Of a DNA stretch of 64,000 bases, positions 1 through 12,142 are shown piece by piece. The notes under the pieces are model-generated. The model saw only the letters and a program-made list of their open reading frames with translations. It did not search any database and was not told the origin of the DNA. The translations under genes and the position numbers were made by a program. Source of the DNA: Sphingobium sp. JS3065 (GTDB taxonomy: Bacteria > Pseudomonadota > Alphaproteobacteria > Sphingomonadales > Sphingomonadaceae); assembly GCF_026427355.1 (NCBI RefSeq), contig NZ_CP102664.1, forward strand, positions 3,041,501 through 3,105,500. The letters run 5' to 3'. Each line of letters begins with the position of its first letter. Positions within the stretch are counted from its first letter, which is position 1.

Positions 1-104
1 AGAGCGGTTTTCGATCTGATTGAATCAGATCGACCGCTCTATTCCTTTGTTTTACCGCGATTTCTTAAACGTCAGATGATGCCATCTGACTGGAAATCGC
101 TCTA
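1..104. repeat. TAGAGC-ended two-hairpin repeat, copy 1 (uninterrupted)
   Basis: Two imperfect palindromes in tandem. The first (about 1-40) has an AGAGCGG/CCGCTCT foot and a GATCTGATT/AATCAGATC stem. The second (about 58-101) has a GCGATTTC/GAAATCGC foot and a TCAGATG/CATCTGA stem. Copy 2 (to 11260) differs at a single base, position 33. The right end reads GCTCTA, and the complement of CTA at 102-104 is the TAG stop of the leftward gene next to it. The left end coincides with the window edge. It is too short to code and looks like a REP/MITE-type element. Confidence 0.85.
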
Positions 105-7460: not shown

Positions 7461-9521
7461 ATGACCGCATCCCCCAAAGCCCCCGTCGCCGCCCGCCGCC
7501 CGCACAGCTTCTCACATCATGGGATCATGGTGGAGGATCCCTATGCCTGGCTGCGCGATCCCGGCTATCCGGAGGTGAAGGACAAGGACGTCCTGTCCTA
7601 TCTGGAGGAGGAGAATGCCTGGTTCGAAGCCGCGATGCAGCCGCGCAAGGCGCTGACCGACACACTGTTCCAGGAGATGAAGGGCCGCATCAAGGAGGAT
7701 GACAGCTCCGTCCCGCAGAAGGACGGCGACAATATCTACTGGCGCGCCTTCGAAACCGGCGCGCAATATCGCAAATGGTACCGCAAACCCGTCGCAGGCG
7801 GCGACGATCAGTTGATCCTGGACGAACCCGCTCTGGCGGAGGGGCATGACTATTTCCGCCTGGGCGCCCTGTCGGTCAGCCCGGACGGCCGCTACCTCGC
7901 CTATGCCATCGACGATGACGGATCGGAACGGTTCGAGGCGCGGATCAAGGATCTCTTCACCGGGGAAATCCTGCCCGAAATCATCCCCGACACATTGTCG
8001 TCGCTGGTGTGGACCAGCGACAGCAGGGGCCTGCTCTACGGCATCGCCAACGACCAATGGCGCACCGACAATGCCCGCCTCCACTGGCTGGGCCAGCCGG
8101 TGGAAAGTGACGTGGAACTGTTTCACGAGGATGATGAGGGTTTCCGCGTCTCGATCGGCCTCACCTCCTCGGAAAAGTGGATCGTGATCGCGACCGGCGA
8201 CCATGTGACGACCGAGGCATGGCTGCTCCCCGCCGACAACCCCACCGCAAAGCCGCTGCTCGTCGCCCCGCGCAAGCCCGGCCGCGAATATGATGTCGAT
8301 GAACATGAGGGCACGCTCTACATCCGCACCAACGACACCCACCCCAATTTCCGGCTGGTGAAGGCGTCGCTGGAAACGCCGGGCCAGTGGGAAGAGGTCA
8401 TCGGCGCGGACCCGCATTTCTACCTGACCGATTTCACGCTGTTCAAAGGCTTCTACGTCACCGAGGGGCGGCAGGACGGCCTCGACCAGATCGAATTGCG
8501 CGACTACGCCACCCATAGCCCCAGGCGCATTCCCTTCCCGGAAGCCAGCTATTCCGCGTCGCTGGACGACAATCCCGAATATGACGTGACGAAGCTGCGC
8601 ATCGGCTATGAATCGATGGTCACGCCGGATACCATCTACGACTATCATCTCGATACCGGCGCGCTCGAAGTGCTGAAGGTCCAGGAAATCCCGTCCGGCT
8701 ATGACGCGGCCCGCTACACCACGGAGCGTCTGACGATCCCGGCCCGCGACGGCACTCAGATTCCCGTTTCCATCGTCTATCCCAAAGACCTGCCCCGCGA
8801 CGGCAGCGCGCCGCTGCATCTCTACGGCTATGGCGCTTATGGCATCGCGATGGAGCCGGGCTTCTCCACCAGCCGCCTGTCCCTGCTGGACCGGGGCTTC
8901 GCCTTCGCGCTCGCCCATATCCGGGGCGGCGACGATCTGGGCCAGCAATGGTATCTGGACGGGAAGCTCGACAAGCGCACCAACACCTTCACCGATTTCG
9001 TGGACGTCGCGAAGGGCCTGATCGAGCGCGGCTATACGGCGAAGGGCCGCATCAGCATCTCCGGCGGATCGGCGGGCGGCGAACTGATGGGCGCGGTCAT
9101 CAACAGCGATCCGGACCTCTGGGGCGCGGTGGTGGCGCATGTGCCCTTCGTGGACGTACTCAACACCATGCTGGACGGAAGCTTGCCGCTGACGCCCGGC
9201 GAATGGCCCGAATGGGGCAATCCGTTAGAGGACAAGGCGGCGTTCGAGACGATCCTGTCCTACGACCCCTACAGCAATGTCAGCGCCCAGGCCTATCCGC
9301 CGCTGATGGTGACGGCGGGTCTCAACGACCCCCGCGTCACCTATTGGGAACCGGCCAAATGGGTGGCGAAGCTGCGCGCTACGAAGACGGACGACAATAT
9401 CCTGCTGCTCAAGACCAATATGGGCGCGGGCCATGGCGGCAAGTCGGGCCGCTTCGAAAGCCTCCACGAAACGGCGGAGGAATTCGCCTTCATCCTCTGG
9501 CAACTCAACATCGCTCAATAA
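7461..9521 (+). CDS. S9 family peptidase, oligopeptidase B type
   Basis: 686 aa, normal for oligopeptidase B / prolyl oligopeptidase. The N-terminus (HGIMVEDPYAWLRDP) and a beta-propeller (about 70-400) lead into an alpha/beta-hydrolase domain. There GGSAGG supplies the nucleophile serine, GLNDPRVTYWEPAKW the aspartate and GAGHGGKSGR the histidine. These cytoplasmic enzymes cleave short peptides; the TYWEP-AKW context and overall length favour oligopeptidase B (basic residue specificity). ATG at 7461. A C-rich/G-rich repeat hairpin follows the stop. Divergent partner: aminopeptidase P. Confidence 0.9.
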   Translation: MTASPKAPVAARRPHSFSHHGIMVEDPYAWLRDPGYPEVKDKDVLSYLEEENAWFEAAMQPRKALTDTLFQEMKGRIKEDDSSVPQKDGDNIYWRAFETGAQYRKWYRKPVAGGDDQLILDEPALAEGHDYFRLGALSVSPDGRYLAYAIDDDGSERFEARIKDLFTGEILPEIIPDTLSSLVWTSDSRGLLYGIANDQWRTDNARLHWLGQPVESDVELFHEDDEGFRVSIGLTSSEKWIVIATGDHVTTEAWLLPADNPTAKPLLVAPRKPGREYDVDEHEGTLYIRTNDTHPNFRLVKASLETPGQWEEVIGADPHFYLTDFTLFKGFYVTEGRQDGLDQIELRDYATHSPRRIPFPEASYSASLDDNPEYDVTKLRIGYESMVTPDTIYDYHLDTGALEVLKVQEIPSGYDAARYTTERLTIPARDGTQIPVSIVYPKDLPRDGSAPLHLYGYGAYGIAMEPGFSTSRLSLLDRGFAFALAHIRGGDDLGQQWYLDGKLDKRTNTFTDFVDVAKGLIERGYTAKGRISISGGSAGGELMGAVINSDPDLWGAVVAHVPFVDVLNTMLDGSLPLTPGEWPEWGNPLEDKAAFETILSYDPYSNVSAQAYPPLMVTAGLNDPRVTYWEPAKWVAKLRATKTDDNILLLKTNMGAGHGGKSGRFESLHETAEEFAFILWQLNIAQ

Positions 9522-9528
9522 AGAAGCT

Positions 9529-9550
9529 CCCCTCCCGCTTGCGGGAGGGG
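9529..9550. repeat. CCCCTCCCGC/GCGGGAGGGG hairpin of a dispersed repeat
   Basis: A perfect 10-bp inverted repeat with a 2-base loop, right after the oligopeptidase stop and followed by GGTCGGGGGAGGGGCGAG. There is no T-run, so it is a repeat that may slow or end transcription, not a classic terminator. Confidence 0.55.
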
Positions 9551-9597
9551 TCGGGGGAGGGGCGAGCGCAGCGAGCGTCAATGGGAACCACGGAAGA

Positions 9598-9996
9598 ATG
9601 TCCTCCACCTACACCACCCAATTTACCGCCGGGCCTGAGCATATCGACATACTCGGCCATGTGAACAACGCCGTCTGGGTGCAATGGATGGAGCAGGTCG
9701 CCACCGAACATTGGGGCCGCGACGCCGCGCCGGATCATCTGGACGCCTATGCCTGGGTCGTGACCCGGCATGAGATCGACTATCGCGGCAATGTGAAGCA
9801 GGGCGAAACCGTCTCCGCCCGCACCTGGATTCCGCATGGACCGCGCGGCGCGCGCTTCGACCGGCACATGGAATTCACCGGTCCCGACGGCAAGGTGAAG
9901 GTGTCGGCCAAATCCACCTGGGCGATCATCGACCTGAAAACGGGCCGCATCCTCCGCGTCCCCCCGGACGTCGCGGCCCGCTTCTTCGAAGGCTAG
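9598..9996 (+). CDS. hotdog-fold acyl-CoA thioesterase (4-hydroxybenzoyl-CoA thioesterase/YbgC-like)
   Basis: 132 aa hotdog protein. The segment HIDILGHVNNAVWVQWMEQV (about residues 13-32) has the family motif with the catalytic Asp/His region and the asparagine pair, followed by the long central helix; the beta sheet follows (VVTRHEIDYRG, GETVSARTWI). Expected activity is hydrolysis of an acyl-CoA in the cytoplasm; the substrate cannot be told. ATG at 9598 follows GGAAGA closely. The stop TAG (9994-9996) is the first three bases of a TAGAGC repeat end, and the IS110 element begins two bases further on. The insertion thus just misses the gene. Confidence 0.85.
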   Translation: MSSTYTTQFTAGPEHIDILGHVNNAVWVQWMEQVATEHWGRDAAPDHLDAYAWVVTRHEIDYRGNVKQGETVSARTWIPHGPRGARFDRHMEFTGPDGKVKVSAKSTWAIIDLKTGRILRVPPDVAARFFEG

Positions 9997-10008
9997 AGTA
10001 TCCGTGAT

Positions 10009-10014
10009 GGTCAA
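10009..10014 (-). promoter_or_regulatory. -35 half of a junction promoter at the transposase-distal end
   Basis: On the minus strand this reads TTGACC, overlapping the transposase stop codon. In a circular or tandem form of the element it would be placed 17 bp upstream of TATGAC (11148-11153): 10 bases from this end, 2 of core and 5 from the other end. Inactive as a pair in the integrated copy. Confidence 0.6.
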
Positions 10015-10952
10015 CCCTGAGATTGTGCCCAGCACCTATTGGCCTTGAGCAATGCGTTTGCGGTGACGACGAGCTTTCGCATGACGGCGGTGATCGCGAT
10101 TTTGGCGGGCTTCCCAGCGTCGACGAGTTGTTGATACTTGGCCTTGAGGTCAGGGTTGTATCGGGCGGCGACGAGTGCCGGCATATAGAGAGCCTGCCTC
10201 ACGTTGGCGCGTCCGCCACGGATGAAGCTTTTGCCTTTCCATTGTCCGGACTGTCGCGCGACGGGGGCGAGACCAGCAAGCGATGCGGCCTGTTTGTTCT
10301 CAAGGCTGCCGAGTTCGGGCATGGTGGCGATGAGCTGGTTGGCGGTCAGCGTTCCCACACCCGCAATGCTGGTCAGGATCTGGTGCCGGCGCGTAAGTAC
10401 GGCATCGGCGGCGATCAGGTTGGAGATCTCGGTGTCGAGAGCCTCGATATGCCGATCGATTTGTTCGAGCCGCTGGCGACACTGGCGCTTGAGAAAGGCG
10501 ATGGTGAGATTTTTCTCGCGATTCTTGAGCGCCGTGCGGTCACGAACCAGGCCGTCGCGGGCATTGATGAGCTCCGCCATGTGGGCCTGCTGTGCGCTTC
10601 GAGCGGGTCTGACCGGTGGTTGCAAGGTTGCGGCCATACGAGCCAGCAGGATGGCGTCAATGCGATCGGTCTTGGCCAGCGTGCCAGTCGCCTGGGCGAA
10701 GCGCCGGGCCCGTTCAGGGTTGAGCTTCACACAGGGCCAGTTGGTCAGCGCCGCCTCCAGTGCGCGATGATAGGTGCCGGTTGCCTCATAGGCGATCCGT
10801 TCGACCGGCCATTGTCGTAGCCAGGCGATCAGCGCCTTGTGGCCCCTGGCCGTGTTGGCGAACTGGCGCTCGAAGCCGGCGGGGTAGGCATGGCAATCAA
10901 GGCTCGCTTTGGAGATGTCGATGCCGATCGTCTGTGGTAGATTGTCGCTCAT
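10011..10952 (-). CDS. IS110 family transposase (DEDD domain plus Transposase_20 domain)
   Basis: 313 aa, intact. The N-terminal RuvC-like DEDD domain shows GIDISKASLD (first acid, about residue 11), AYEATGTYH (about 56) and KTDRIDAILL (about 94-97). A long helical linker (about 130-190) follows. The C-terminal Transposase_20 domain has LTSIAGVGTLTANQLIATM, the LAGLAPVARQSGQWKG segment, and the serine in GKSFIRGGR, which in this family makes the covalent DNA link. ATG at 10952 is used; a TTG at 10988 lies inside the predicted guide RNA. It forms the only protein of the element, and the RNA encoded just upstream would guide it. Confidence 0.95.
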   Translation of the reverse strand: MSDNLPQTIGIDISKASLDCHAYPAGFERQFANTARGHKALIAWLRQWPVERIAYEATGTYHRALEAALTNWPCVKLNPERARRFAQATGTLAKTDRIDAILLARMAATLQPPVRPARSAQQAHMAELINARDGLVRDRTALKNREKNLTIAFLKRQCRQRLEQIDRHIEALDTEISNLIAADAVLTRRHQILTSIAGVGTLTANQLIATMPELGSLENKQAASLAGLAPVARQSGQWKGKSFIRGGRANVRQALYMPALVAARYNPDLKAKYQQLVDAGKPAKIAITAVMRKLVVTANALLKANRCWAQSQG

Positions 10953-10956
10953 CTTT

Positions 10957-11141
10957 TCCGCTGGCCCATGCTTGTCATCCGGGTCCAAAACCCTGGTATC
11001 CGTTCGGGCCTGATGGAAAAGAAAGGGGCGATCCTACTCTAACCCGGTCCCTGAACGACCCGCGGTTTTGCGATCCGTCCCCTTCCGCCCGGGCCGGAGT
11101 GGCCACCCCGGCCCGGGCAATCCAGCATGACCCAAACGGAT
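10957..11141 (-). ncRNA. predicted IS110 bridge RNA with target and donor loops
   Basis: On the minus strand the region folds into three parts. First is a GC-rich 5' stem-loop (11087-11118, GCCCGGGCCGG/CCGGCCCGGGC). Second is a target loop (11025-11082) closed by GGGG/CCCC and capped by GGTC/GACC. Third is a donor loop (10963-11010) closed by GGCCC/GGGCC and capped by GGGT/ACCC. The target loop strands read AAAACCGC, identical to the left target including the first core base, and GGTTAGAG, which pairs with CTCTAGCC across the core (8 pairs, one G.U). The donor loop strands read ACGGATAC, identical to one element end, and GACAAG, complementary to CTTGTC at the other end. The RNA 5' end is inferred from the junction -10. 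The fold was made by eye. Confidence 0.85.
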
Positions 11142-11147
11142 GGCAAT

Positions 11148-11158
11148 GTCATAAGACA
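11148..11158 (-). promoter_or_regulatory. -10 half of the junction promoter at the guide-RNA end
   Basis: Minus-strand TATGAC (11148-11153) plus the five outermost bases of the element. It pairs with TTGACC at 10009-10014 only when the ends are joined, giving exactly 17 bp spacing and a start about at the 5' end of the predicted bridge RNA. Confidence 0.6.
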
Positions 11159-11260
11159 AGCGGTTTTCGATCTGATTGAATCAGATCGGCCGCTCTATTC
11201 CTTTGTTTTACCGCGATTTCTTAAACGTCAGATGATGCCATCTGACTGGAAATCGCTCTA
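11159..11260. repeat. TAGAGC-ended two-hairpin repeat, copy 2 (interrupted by the IS110 element)
   Basis: Same sequence and orientation as copy 1, with one base different (11189). Its first bases TAGAG remain on the far side of the IS at 9994-9998. The restored element is 105 bp with 6-bp inverted ends TAGAGC/GCTCTA. Both ends supply the TAG stop of a converging gene: the thioesterase on the left and the DMT transporter on the right. Confidence 0.85.
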
Positions 11261-12142
11261 AGCCTGCTTGGTCCGCAGCGCCACGACCATCCCGGCAATC
11301 GCCAGCAGCGCGCCCGCACCCGCCAGCCCCGTCCATCGATAACCCTCCGCCAGCGTGGAGATCAGCATGGCGATCACCGGGATCAGCACGCTGGTATAGG
11401 CCGCGCGCCCCGCGCCCACGCGCTGGATCAGCCGGAAATAAAGCGGGAAGGTCACCACCGACCCCGCCAGCCCCAGCCACGCGATCCCGGCCAGATAGCT
11501 CGGCCGCGTCTCGATCACCGGCGGCCCCACCGTGACCCAGGCGAACAGCGCATCCACCGCCGCGCCGATCAGCATCGCCCAGGCCAGTACCGCCACCATC
11601 GGCAGCCGCCGGGCAATCTGCATCCCCTGCATCACATTGGCGACCGAAGCGCTCATCAGCCCGGCGACCGCGAAGGCCGCGCCCAGCAGCACCCTGTCCG
11701 ACCGCAGGCTCGCCGCTTCATGCGCCAGCATCAGCGCGATCCCCGCGACCGCCACCACCGATCCCGCGACGAAGGCTCGGCTCACCGGCTGGCGAAAGAA
11801 GAGGAAGGCAAGGATGCTGTTGGGGATCAGCAGCATGGCATAGACCACCGCCACCACGCCGGACGTCAGAAAATGCTCGGCCCGATAGACGAAGTTGAAA
11901 TTCATCACGAACTGCGCCGTGCCCAGCAACCCGGCGAAGACCAGTCCCCTGCCGCCGATATTCAGCGGCACGCGCCGCGCCCTGGCGAAGATCGCCATCG
12001 CCACACCGGCCAGCAGGAAACGGTAGCAGACCGACCAGCTCGCCGGCACGCTGCCCAACTGGTCGCGGATCACGATCCAGGTCGAACTCCAGATCAGCGT
12101 GACCAGGATGAAGGGCAGGGCGACGCCTTTGCCCTCGATCAT
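11258..12142 (-). CDS. DMT family (EamA) inner-membrane transporter
   Basis: 294 aa with ten predicted membrane helices in two EamA halves. It starts LPFILVTLIWSSTWIVIRDQ, a typical first helix of drug/metabolite exporters, and the second half repeats the pattern from about residue 150. The substrate is unknown; amino acid or metabolite export is usual. ATG at 12142 overlaps the upstream threonine aldolase stop (ATGA), so it is co-translated with that gene and might export a related compound (inference). The stop TAG is the end of the TAGAGC repeat, so the C-terminus has been set by the repeat. Confidence 0.88.
   Translation of the reverse strand: MIEGKGVALPFILVTLIWSSTWIVIRDQLGSVPASWSVCYRFLLAGVAMAIFARARRVPLNIGGRGLVFAGLLGTAQFVMNFNFVYRAEHFLTSGVVAVVYAMLLIPNSILAFLFFRQPVSRAFVAGSVVAVAGIALMLAHEAASLRSDRVLLGAAFAVAGLMSASVANVMQGMQIARRLPMVAVLAWAMLIGAAVDALFAWVTVGPPVIETRPSYLAGIAWLGLAGSVVTFPLYFRLIQRVGAGRAAYTSVLIPVIAMLISTLAEGYRWTGLAGAGALLAIAGMVVALRTKQA

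Follow-up and report, generated by a model that had tools for sequence, protein, structure and literature searches.

The question raised by this locus is whether the leader in front of a transposase gene of Sphingobium sp. JS3065 (genome of 5.1 Mb in 5 contigs) encodes a bridge RNA, as was proposed in a sequence-only reading of the window (here, the whole analysed stretch of 64,000 nucleotides). The bridge-RNA mechanism was presented in two 2024 Nature papers (PMC11208160, PMC11208158) and in the seekRNA paper (PMC11187229), and palindromic repeats as targets of IS110 elements were described in 2006 (PMC1525189). Our comparative analysis points to an insertion sequence of the IS110 group that very probably encodes such an RNA in its 5' non-coding end (probability about 0.93).

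As judged from its junctions and length, the element occupies positions 9999..11160 of the minus strand, its corrected extent being 1,162 bp with one CT core counted and its left end lying at 11160. The left junction reads AAAACCG-CT-TGTC (core at 11160-11159, minus strand) and the right junction ACGGATA-CT-CTAGCC (core at 9998-9997, minus strand). The left target flank is therefore AAAACCG (11161..11167), and the second CT core together with the right target flank is CTCTAGCC (9991..9998); the left donor, ACGGATA, is the right end of the element (9999..10005) and the right donor, CTTGTC, is its left end with the core (11155..11160), all on the minus strand. Features that place the element in the IS110 group are: (i) unequal non-coding ends, with 208 nt 5' of the ATG (core included) versus 12 nt 3' of the stop codon, (ii) a CT core at both ends without further target duplication, as AAAACCG-CT and CT-CTAGCC rejoin into the uninterrupted repeat end AAAACCGCTCTAG, which is present at 14 other places of the genome, and (iii) a recombinase with a DEDD RuvC domain plus a Transposase_20 domain with the catalytic serine. 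Uninterrupted repeat copies of the same genome stand in here for an orthologous empty site; the left flank was found in 0 of the 19 other loci compared, and the neighbouring 500 bases had some match in 91 of 94 genomes of the same genus. Assignment to the IS1111 group was rejected, since subterminal inverted repeats of 7-17 bp are absent: the end 60-mers share at most 6 bp exactly and show no match of at least 11 bp with one mismatch.

The DEDD recombinase gene (10011..10952, minus strand; 313 aa from the ATG at 10952) was recognized by its Pfam, NCBIfam and PDB sequence relatives. Its product matches Pfam PF01548 and PF02371 and scores 214.6 bits against NCBIfam NF033542, 'IS110 family RNA-guided transposase' (cut-off 140). 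The motifs GID, EATGTY, KTDRID and QSG align with residues D11, E60, D102/D105 and S241 of IS621, numbered as in PMC11208158 (the PDB chain numbering is apparently two ahead of that of the paper). The best PDB sequence match of the recombinase is ISCro4 (114.9 bits), with which it was compared by protein. The CTAG in the right target flank contains the stop codon (9994-9996) of a neighbouring plus-strand ORF (9433-9996), and the insertion thus abuts the end of that gene.

All four guide segments of the sequence-only reading were recovered on the minus strand, each occurring once in the 206-nt leader: the left target guide (LTG) AAAACCGC at 11062..11069, the right target guide (RTG) at 11037..11045, the left donor guide (LDG) ACGGATAC at 10996..11003 and the right donor guide (RDG) GACAAG at 10971..10976. 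The RTG had been claimed to pair over 8 positions with one G.U, and this match, GGTTAGAG (11037-11044) against CTCTAGCC, holds; in relatives, the guide is best taken as 9 nt, which in the present element gives GGGTTAGAG (11037-11045). Chance agreement had been considered very unlikely, which was borne out by dinucleotide shuffling of the 206-nt leader with G.U permitted in both complement matches: all four guides were present in 0 of 20,000 shuffles and three of the four in 5 of 20,000. The 5' stem-loop (GCCCGGGCCGGGG...CTCCGGCCCGGGC; 11087..11118, minus strand), target loop and donor loop follow one another in the order published for IS621, and the strand read by each side of a loop is also the one described there (PMC11208160).

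As the sequence shows, the LTG and RTG of the first internal loop read both halves of the target around the CT core, and the LDG and RDG of the second loop read the two element ends. If the element works as IS621 does, it would excise as a circle, the joined ends of which would make a promoter for transcription of the recombinase as well as the bridge RNA; the latter would then hold the circle (the donor) and the target together, and a recombinase tetramer would exchange strands at CT without target duplication.

The predicted bridge RNA may span approximately 10957..11141 (minus strand). RNAalifold applied to 43 leaders gave 33 pairs, six of which equal the complementarity between the RDG and the element end and two of which are doubtful; all eight were left out and the remaining 25 were tested. 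Among these, 96.0% of cells were paired (82.8 when shuffled), 124 cells were changed on both sides (43.2 when shuffled) and the covariation score was 0.398 (0.181 when shuffled), 0 of 500 shuffles being as extreme in each case. Less extreme were the number of pairs with change on both sides (13 vs 9.6 shuffled; 4 of 500 shuffles) and the number of further pair types (33 vs 29.3 shuffled; 10 of 500 shuffles). With slid partners, the covariation score was at most 0.167. As in IS621, the fold has a stem-loop at the 5' end followed by two others that contain internal loops, the outer donor stem being weakly supported.

A covariance-model search had been suggested as a check. The model, built on 34 relatives with the window, the copies of its own genome and close relatives left out, matched 10965-11118 of the minus strand with 152.8 bits, the next match within the 64 kb scoring 10.5. 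Matches with E below 0.001 were also obtained in 27 of 28 other sources, of which several are close copies of training rows; the sole miss was a fragment with the right end only. Rfam 15 gave no match at gathering score at the leader; the only signal there, sX15, falls on the opposite strand and stays below its threshold (22 bits, cut-off 55; E 0.51). Two Rfam matches lie elsewhere in the window: a TPP riboswitch (RF00059; 30615-30725, plus strand, 70.6 bits) and a member of the suhB/mmgR small RNA family (RF00519; 21505-21580, plus strand, 50.3 bits).

Strong folding (z -4.4) and the position of the RDG, which ends 18 nt 5' of the start codon, would also suit a structured 5' UTR or a small regulatory RNA controlling the transposase, with the guide matches as by-products; the ISPpu9 transposase is reported to be regulated by small RNAs (PMC8450116). 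A role as regulator, however, does not explain why the letters of the loops change with the host DNA or with the element end (see below), and it can coexist with a guide role. As a replacement for the bridge RNA, the regulatory explanation is very improbable.

In IS621, a sigma-70-like promoter is rebuilt on excision (PMC11208160). The ends of the present element, when joined in a circle, read TTGACC-17-TATGAC, that is, a -35-like TTGACC (10009..10014, minus strand) placed 17 nt from a -10-like TATGAC (11148..11153, minus strand), a promoter spacing which arises only with the ends joined. Among the distinct junctions of relatives, TTG stands at a fixed place in 30 of 30 and TTGA in 26 of 30. 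Only the -35 is independent evidence, because TAT belonged to the motif used for finding left ends. The predicted circle-junction promoter is of the kind found in IS621.

Whether the guides follow the DNA that they are supposed to read was judged from relatives, obtained from a named genome scan (53 loci) and from whole-genome searches, which gave 108 recombinase places, many of them seen twice. From these, 25 without a readable left-end motif were dropped, L107, L108 and L154 were left out as their loops did not fit the reading rule, and identical rows were merged, which resulted in 55 distinct element/target places. The left match was scored over the six core-adjacent letters as the best of two registers, for observed and permuted sets alike. 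It reached 4.49 of 6 at the 55 places against 2.86 when permuted (sd 0.16), and the right Watson-Crick match reached 4.09 of 6 at the 47 places with a right flank against 3.33 (sd 0.10), with 0 of 20,000 permutations attaining either value, although permutation does not correct fully for the relatedness of the places. With one row per guide, the values were 4.28 vs 2.65 on the left (25 guides) and 4.00 vs 2.72 on the right (14 guides), again with 0 of 20,000. Right flanks are CTCTA(A/G) at 33 of the 47 places, and the right-side signal therefore rests on the remaining minority and on letters farther out. Outside the sphingomonads the right pairs are varied, e.g. GTTTCTGAG with CTCAGAAGA (L063), GCTTCAGAG with CTCTGAACA (L073) and GTTTGTGAG with CTCACAGCC (L064), and within the same genus GCGGTCGAG is paired with CTCGACGTG (L117). 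The right flanks of L062 and L228 do not fit the guide; that of L062, CTTGTCTTG, resembles the first letters of the left end of the element itself and is perhaps a remnant of a head-to-tail junction. The target guides covary with the target on both sides, as expected for a bridge RNA of the IS621 type.

A further set consisted of 19 plasmid loci, hand-picked from 40 listed of 82 records, with two loci of the first set, near duplicates and others left out; as the loop rule was relaxed after the loops had been seen, this set was not blind, though of independent origin. Under the relaxed rule, 15 of the 19 loci were readable (4 unparsed), with a left match of 4.53 vs 3.16 and a right match of 4.60 vs 2.84 (0 of 20,000 permutations); in the same run, 32 of the 108 places of the first set were unparsed and two places were possibly counted twice. 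Under the strict rule, 6 of 19 were readable, with a left match of 4.83 vs 3.23 (34 of 20,000 permutations as high) and a right Watson-Crick match of 3.83 vs 2.56 (119 of 20,000, or 1194 of 20,000 with G.U). In L235 and L237, the right target matches the guide at all 9 letters, and in L226 a guide for CTGCGCA adjoins CTGCGCA.

The fit on the left is uneven: 6, 5, 4, 3 and 2 of the 6 letters match at 15, 15, 9, 14 and 2 of the 55 places, respectively, so that 16 places have poor matches (at most 3 of 6, near the permuted mean). Five of these 16 are places in two genomes (L140, L112, L119, L123 and L125, in G046 and G114) at which the guide AAAACCG stands at TCATCA(C/T)G-CTCTA, the right side being CTCTA in all. 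Copies at other targets with unchanged loops, named beforehand as evidence against the bridge RNA, thus do occur within single genomes, but across lineages the loops follow the targets. The five places, along with the prevalence of CTCTA(A/G) among right flanks, might also suggest that the choice of the repeat end lies with the recombinase protein alone, the guide similarity stemming from common descent or from capture of the target. Against this, the guide departs together with the right target where the latter is CTCAGAA, CTCTGAA, CTCACA, CTCGAC, CTGCGCA or CTCTCA, and the two genomes with the odd sites have no CGAAAACCGCTCTAA within one mismatch, while GTCATCACGCTCTAA occurs in them, likewise within one mismatch, 8 and 21 times. 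Choice by the protein is very improbable, like the regulatory explanation, and under guidance by RNA we infer that, where matched repeats are scarce, the elements make use of abundant ones that match in part. The TCATCACG site has a poor left match to the guide AAAACCG. Two of the five copies, L119 and L125 (G046 C4:3004621-3007077), lie in opposite orientations, and about 600 bp separate the two genes.

The donor is nearly invariant (ACGGATA, CTTGTC) down to 42-47% protein identity, with a donor mismatch on one side in L064, L071, L100 and L139; the donor guides hardly vary among close relatives and are tested only by distant ones. The LDG and the element end agree as ACGGATA, ACGGAAA (L107, 68%), ACAGATG, ACGGTTG, ACAGTTG and ACAGTCG, a list that comes from a search for shared 7-mers without a permutation test, which also yielded chance-like matches, e.g. 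in L145. On the right, the pair CTTGTC/GACAAG shifts to CTTGCA/TGCAAG in two distantly related lineages, and in lineages with the end CTTGTA the RDG match is partial, not full. Covariation of donor guides with element ends was hence observed for the LDG and only in part for the RDG.

Guide/target covariation, conserved structure, the covariance-model match and the circle-junction promoter together uphold the proposed reading, and the leader very probably encodes a genuine bridge RNA, one that is probably complete; the comparative sequence evidence for it is about as strong as comparison can give. The accompanying description as a new RNA-guided recombinase is appropriate in that the element adds a further member to the IS110 bridge-RNA family, and not in the sense of a new class of machine.

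The target itself coincides with the end of a repeat (11161..11262, minus strand) that is palindromic, about 104 bp long and built of two hairpins; whole copies carry CTAG at either end. The genome contains at least 29 near-full copies of it (at least 91 bases aligned), three of which adjoin a copy of this IS, and the uninterrupted target end TCGAAAACCGCTCTAG occurs at 14 genome sites; with its guide set to the repeat end AAAACCG-CT-CTAG, the element has many sites available. Another copy of the repeat is located at window positions 3-104 (C1:3041503-3041604). An origin of the repeat as an IS630-derived miniature element was considered because two relatives are inserted directly after IS630-type genes (see below) and because 3 of the 7 DDE_3 places of the genome have inverted ends and are bordered by CTAG sites (L216-L218); the two-hairpin build fits a palindromic repeat as well. 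Relatives at other sites are found at the ends of other repeats and at the 3' ends of two IS630-type transposase genes (L098 and L130; DDE_3), and relatives such as those of Paracoccus and Jannaschia occupy sites without CTCTA. We tentatively suggest, at less than even odds, that elements of this lineage specialize, guided by RNA, in the termini of other repeats: a near-constant right guide would read the CTCTA(A/G) terminus that palindromic repeats share with IS630-type elements in sphingomonads and relatives, and the left guide would drift toward the repeat family present locally. If so, the element would re-target by changing one loop strand, following a repeat that is plentiful in its host.

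In comparison with known systems, the element resembles IS621 of Escherichia coli in the leader with a 5' stem-loop followed by target and donor loops, the CT core, the loops reading 8-9 nt on their 5' side and 4-7 nt on their 3' side, the promoter from joined ends and the combination of DEDD with serine (PMC11208160, PMC11208158), as well as in having a palindromic repeat as its target (PMC1525189). It differs in its only distantly related recombinase (109.8 bits), in its target AAAACCG-CT-CTARCC and donor ACGGATA-CT-TGTC, and in right guide pairing of up to 9 nt in its relatives. The seekRNAs of IS1111 and IS110 elements (ISEc11, ISEc21) likewise come from a long non-coding end, guide the element to its target and show natural re-targeting; however, as far as the available part of that paper goes, they are shorter and read two target strands, and the donor-reading loop of the present leader fits a bridge RNA better (PMC11187229). 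ISPpu9, ISPpu10, ISPa11 and ISRm19 are also IS110 elements at palindromic repeats, but the accessible sections of the study on them treat targets and not guide RNAs, and no sphingomonad was found there (PMC1525189). Among the papers listed in the literature searches, none pairs 'Sphingobium' with 'bridge RNA' and no title concerns sphingomonad bridge RNAs. Although a system of this kind has been known since 2024, the locus offers a readable bridge-RNA recombinase from an environmental bacterium together with a natural series of re-targeted relatives, in which 25 distinct left guides stand with real targets and in which both target guides, and the LDG in distant relatives, change with the DNA that they read. 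Such a series makes rules of tolerance testable, e.g. the positions of mismatches, the length of the right guide and the gain of new targets.

The genome holds three near-full copies of the element, including that of the window, and two fragments. One near-full copy (L009; C1:2678876-2680020, 98% identity) has inserted into the target repeat at its other end, GGAAATCG-CT-CTAGCG, which agrees with the unchanged guide at 5 of 6 letters; the left agreement is 6 of 6 in the other two. The third (L010; C1:2920026-2922539) is interrupted by a different IS, which has rve and HTH transposase domains. As the recombinase is frameshifted in both copies other than that of the window, and only three near-full copies exist, the bridge RNA lineage might be real and the window copy inactive. 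This is rather unlikely, given that the gene of the window copy is open over 313 codons and encodes the catalytic residues, and that the four guides and the two ends are intact, but it deserves far more weight than the two alternatives discussed above. L009 and L010 share one 13-bp deletion, which causes the frameshift, yet they stand at different sites, a pattern suggestive of mobilization in trans, or of gene conversion, once the deletion had arisen. The IS inserted in L010 (at about 611-1977) cuts its bridge RNA between the two strands of the target loop. A left-end fragment on C2 is 86% identical and differs in both flank (GCGCGATG-CT) and left loop (CATCGATGCC), which agree with each other at 5 of 6 core-adjacent letters.
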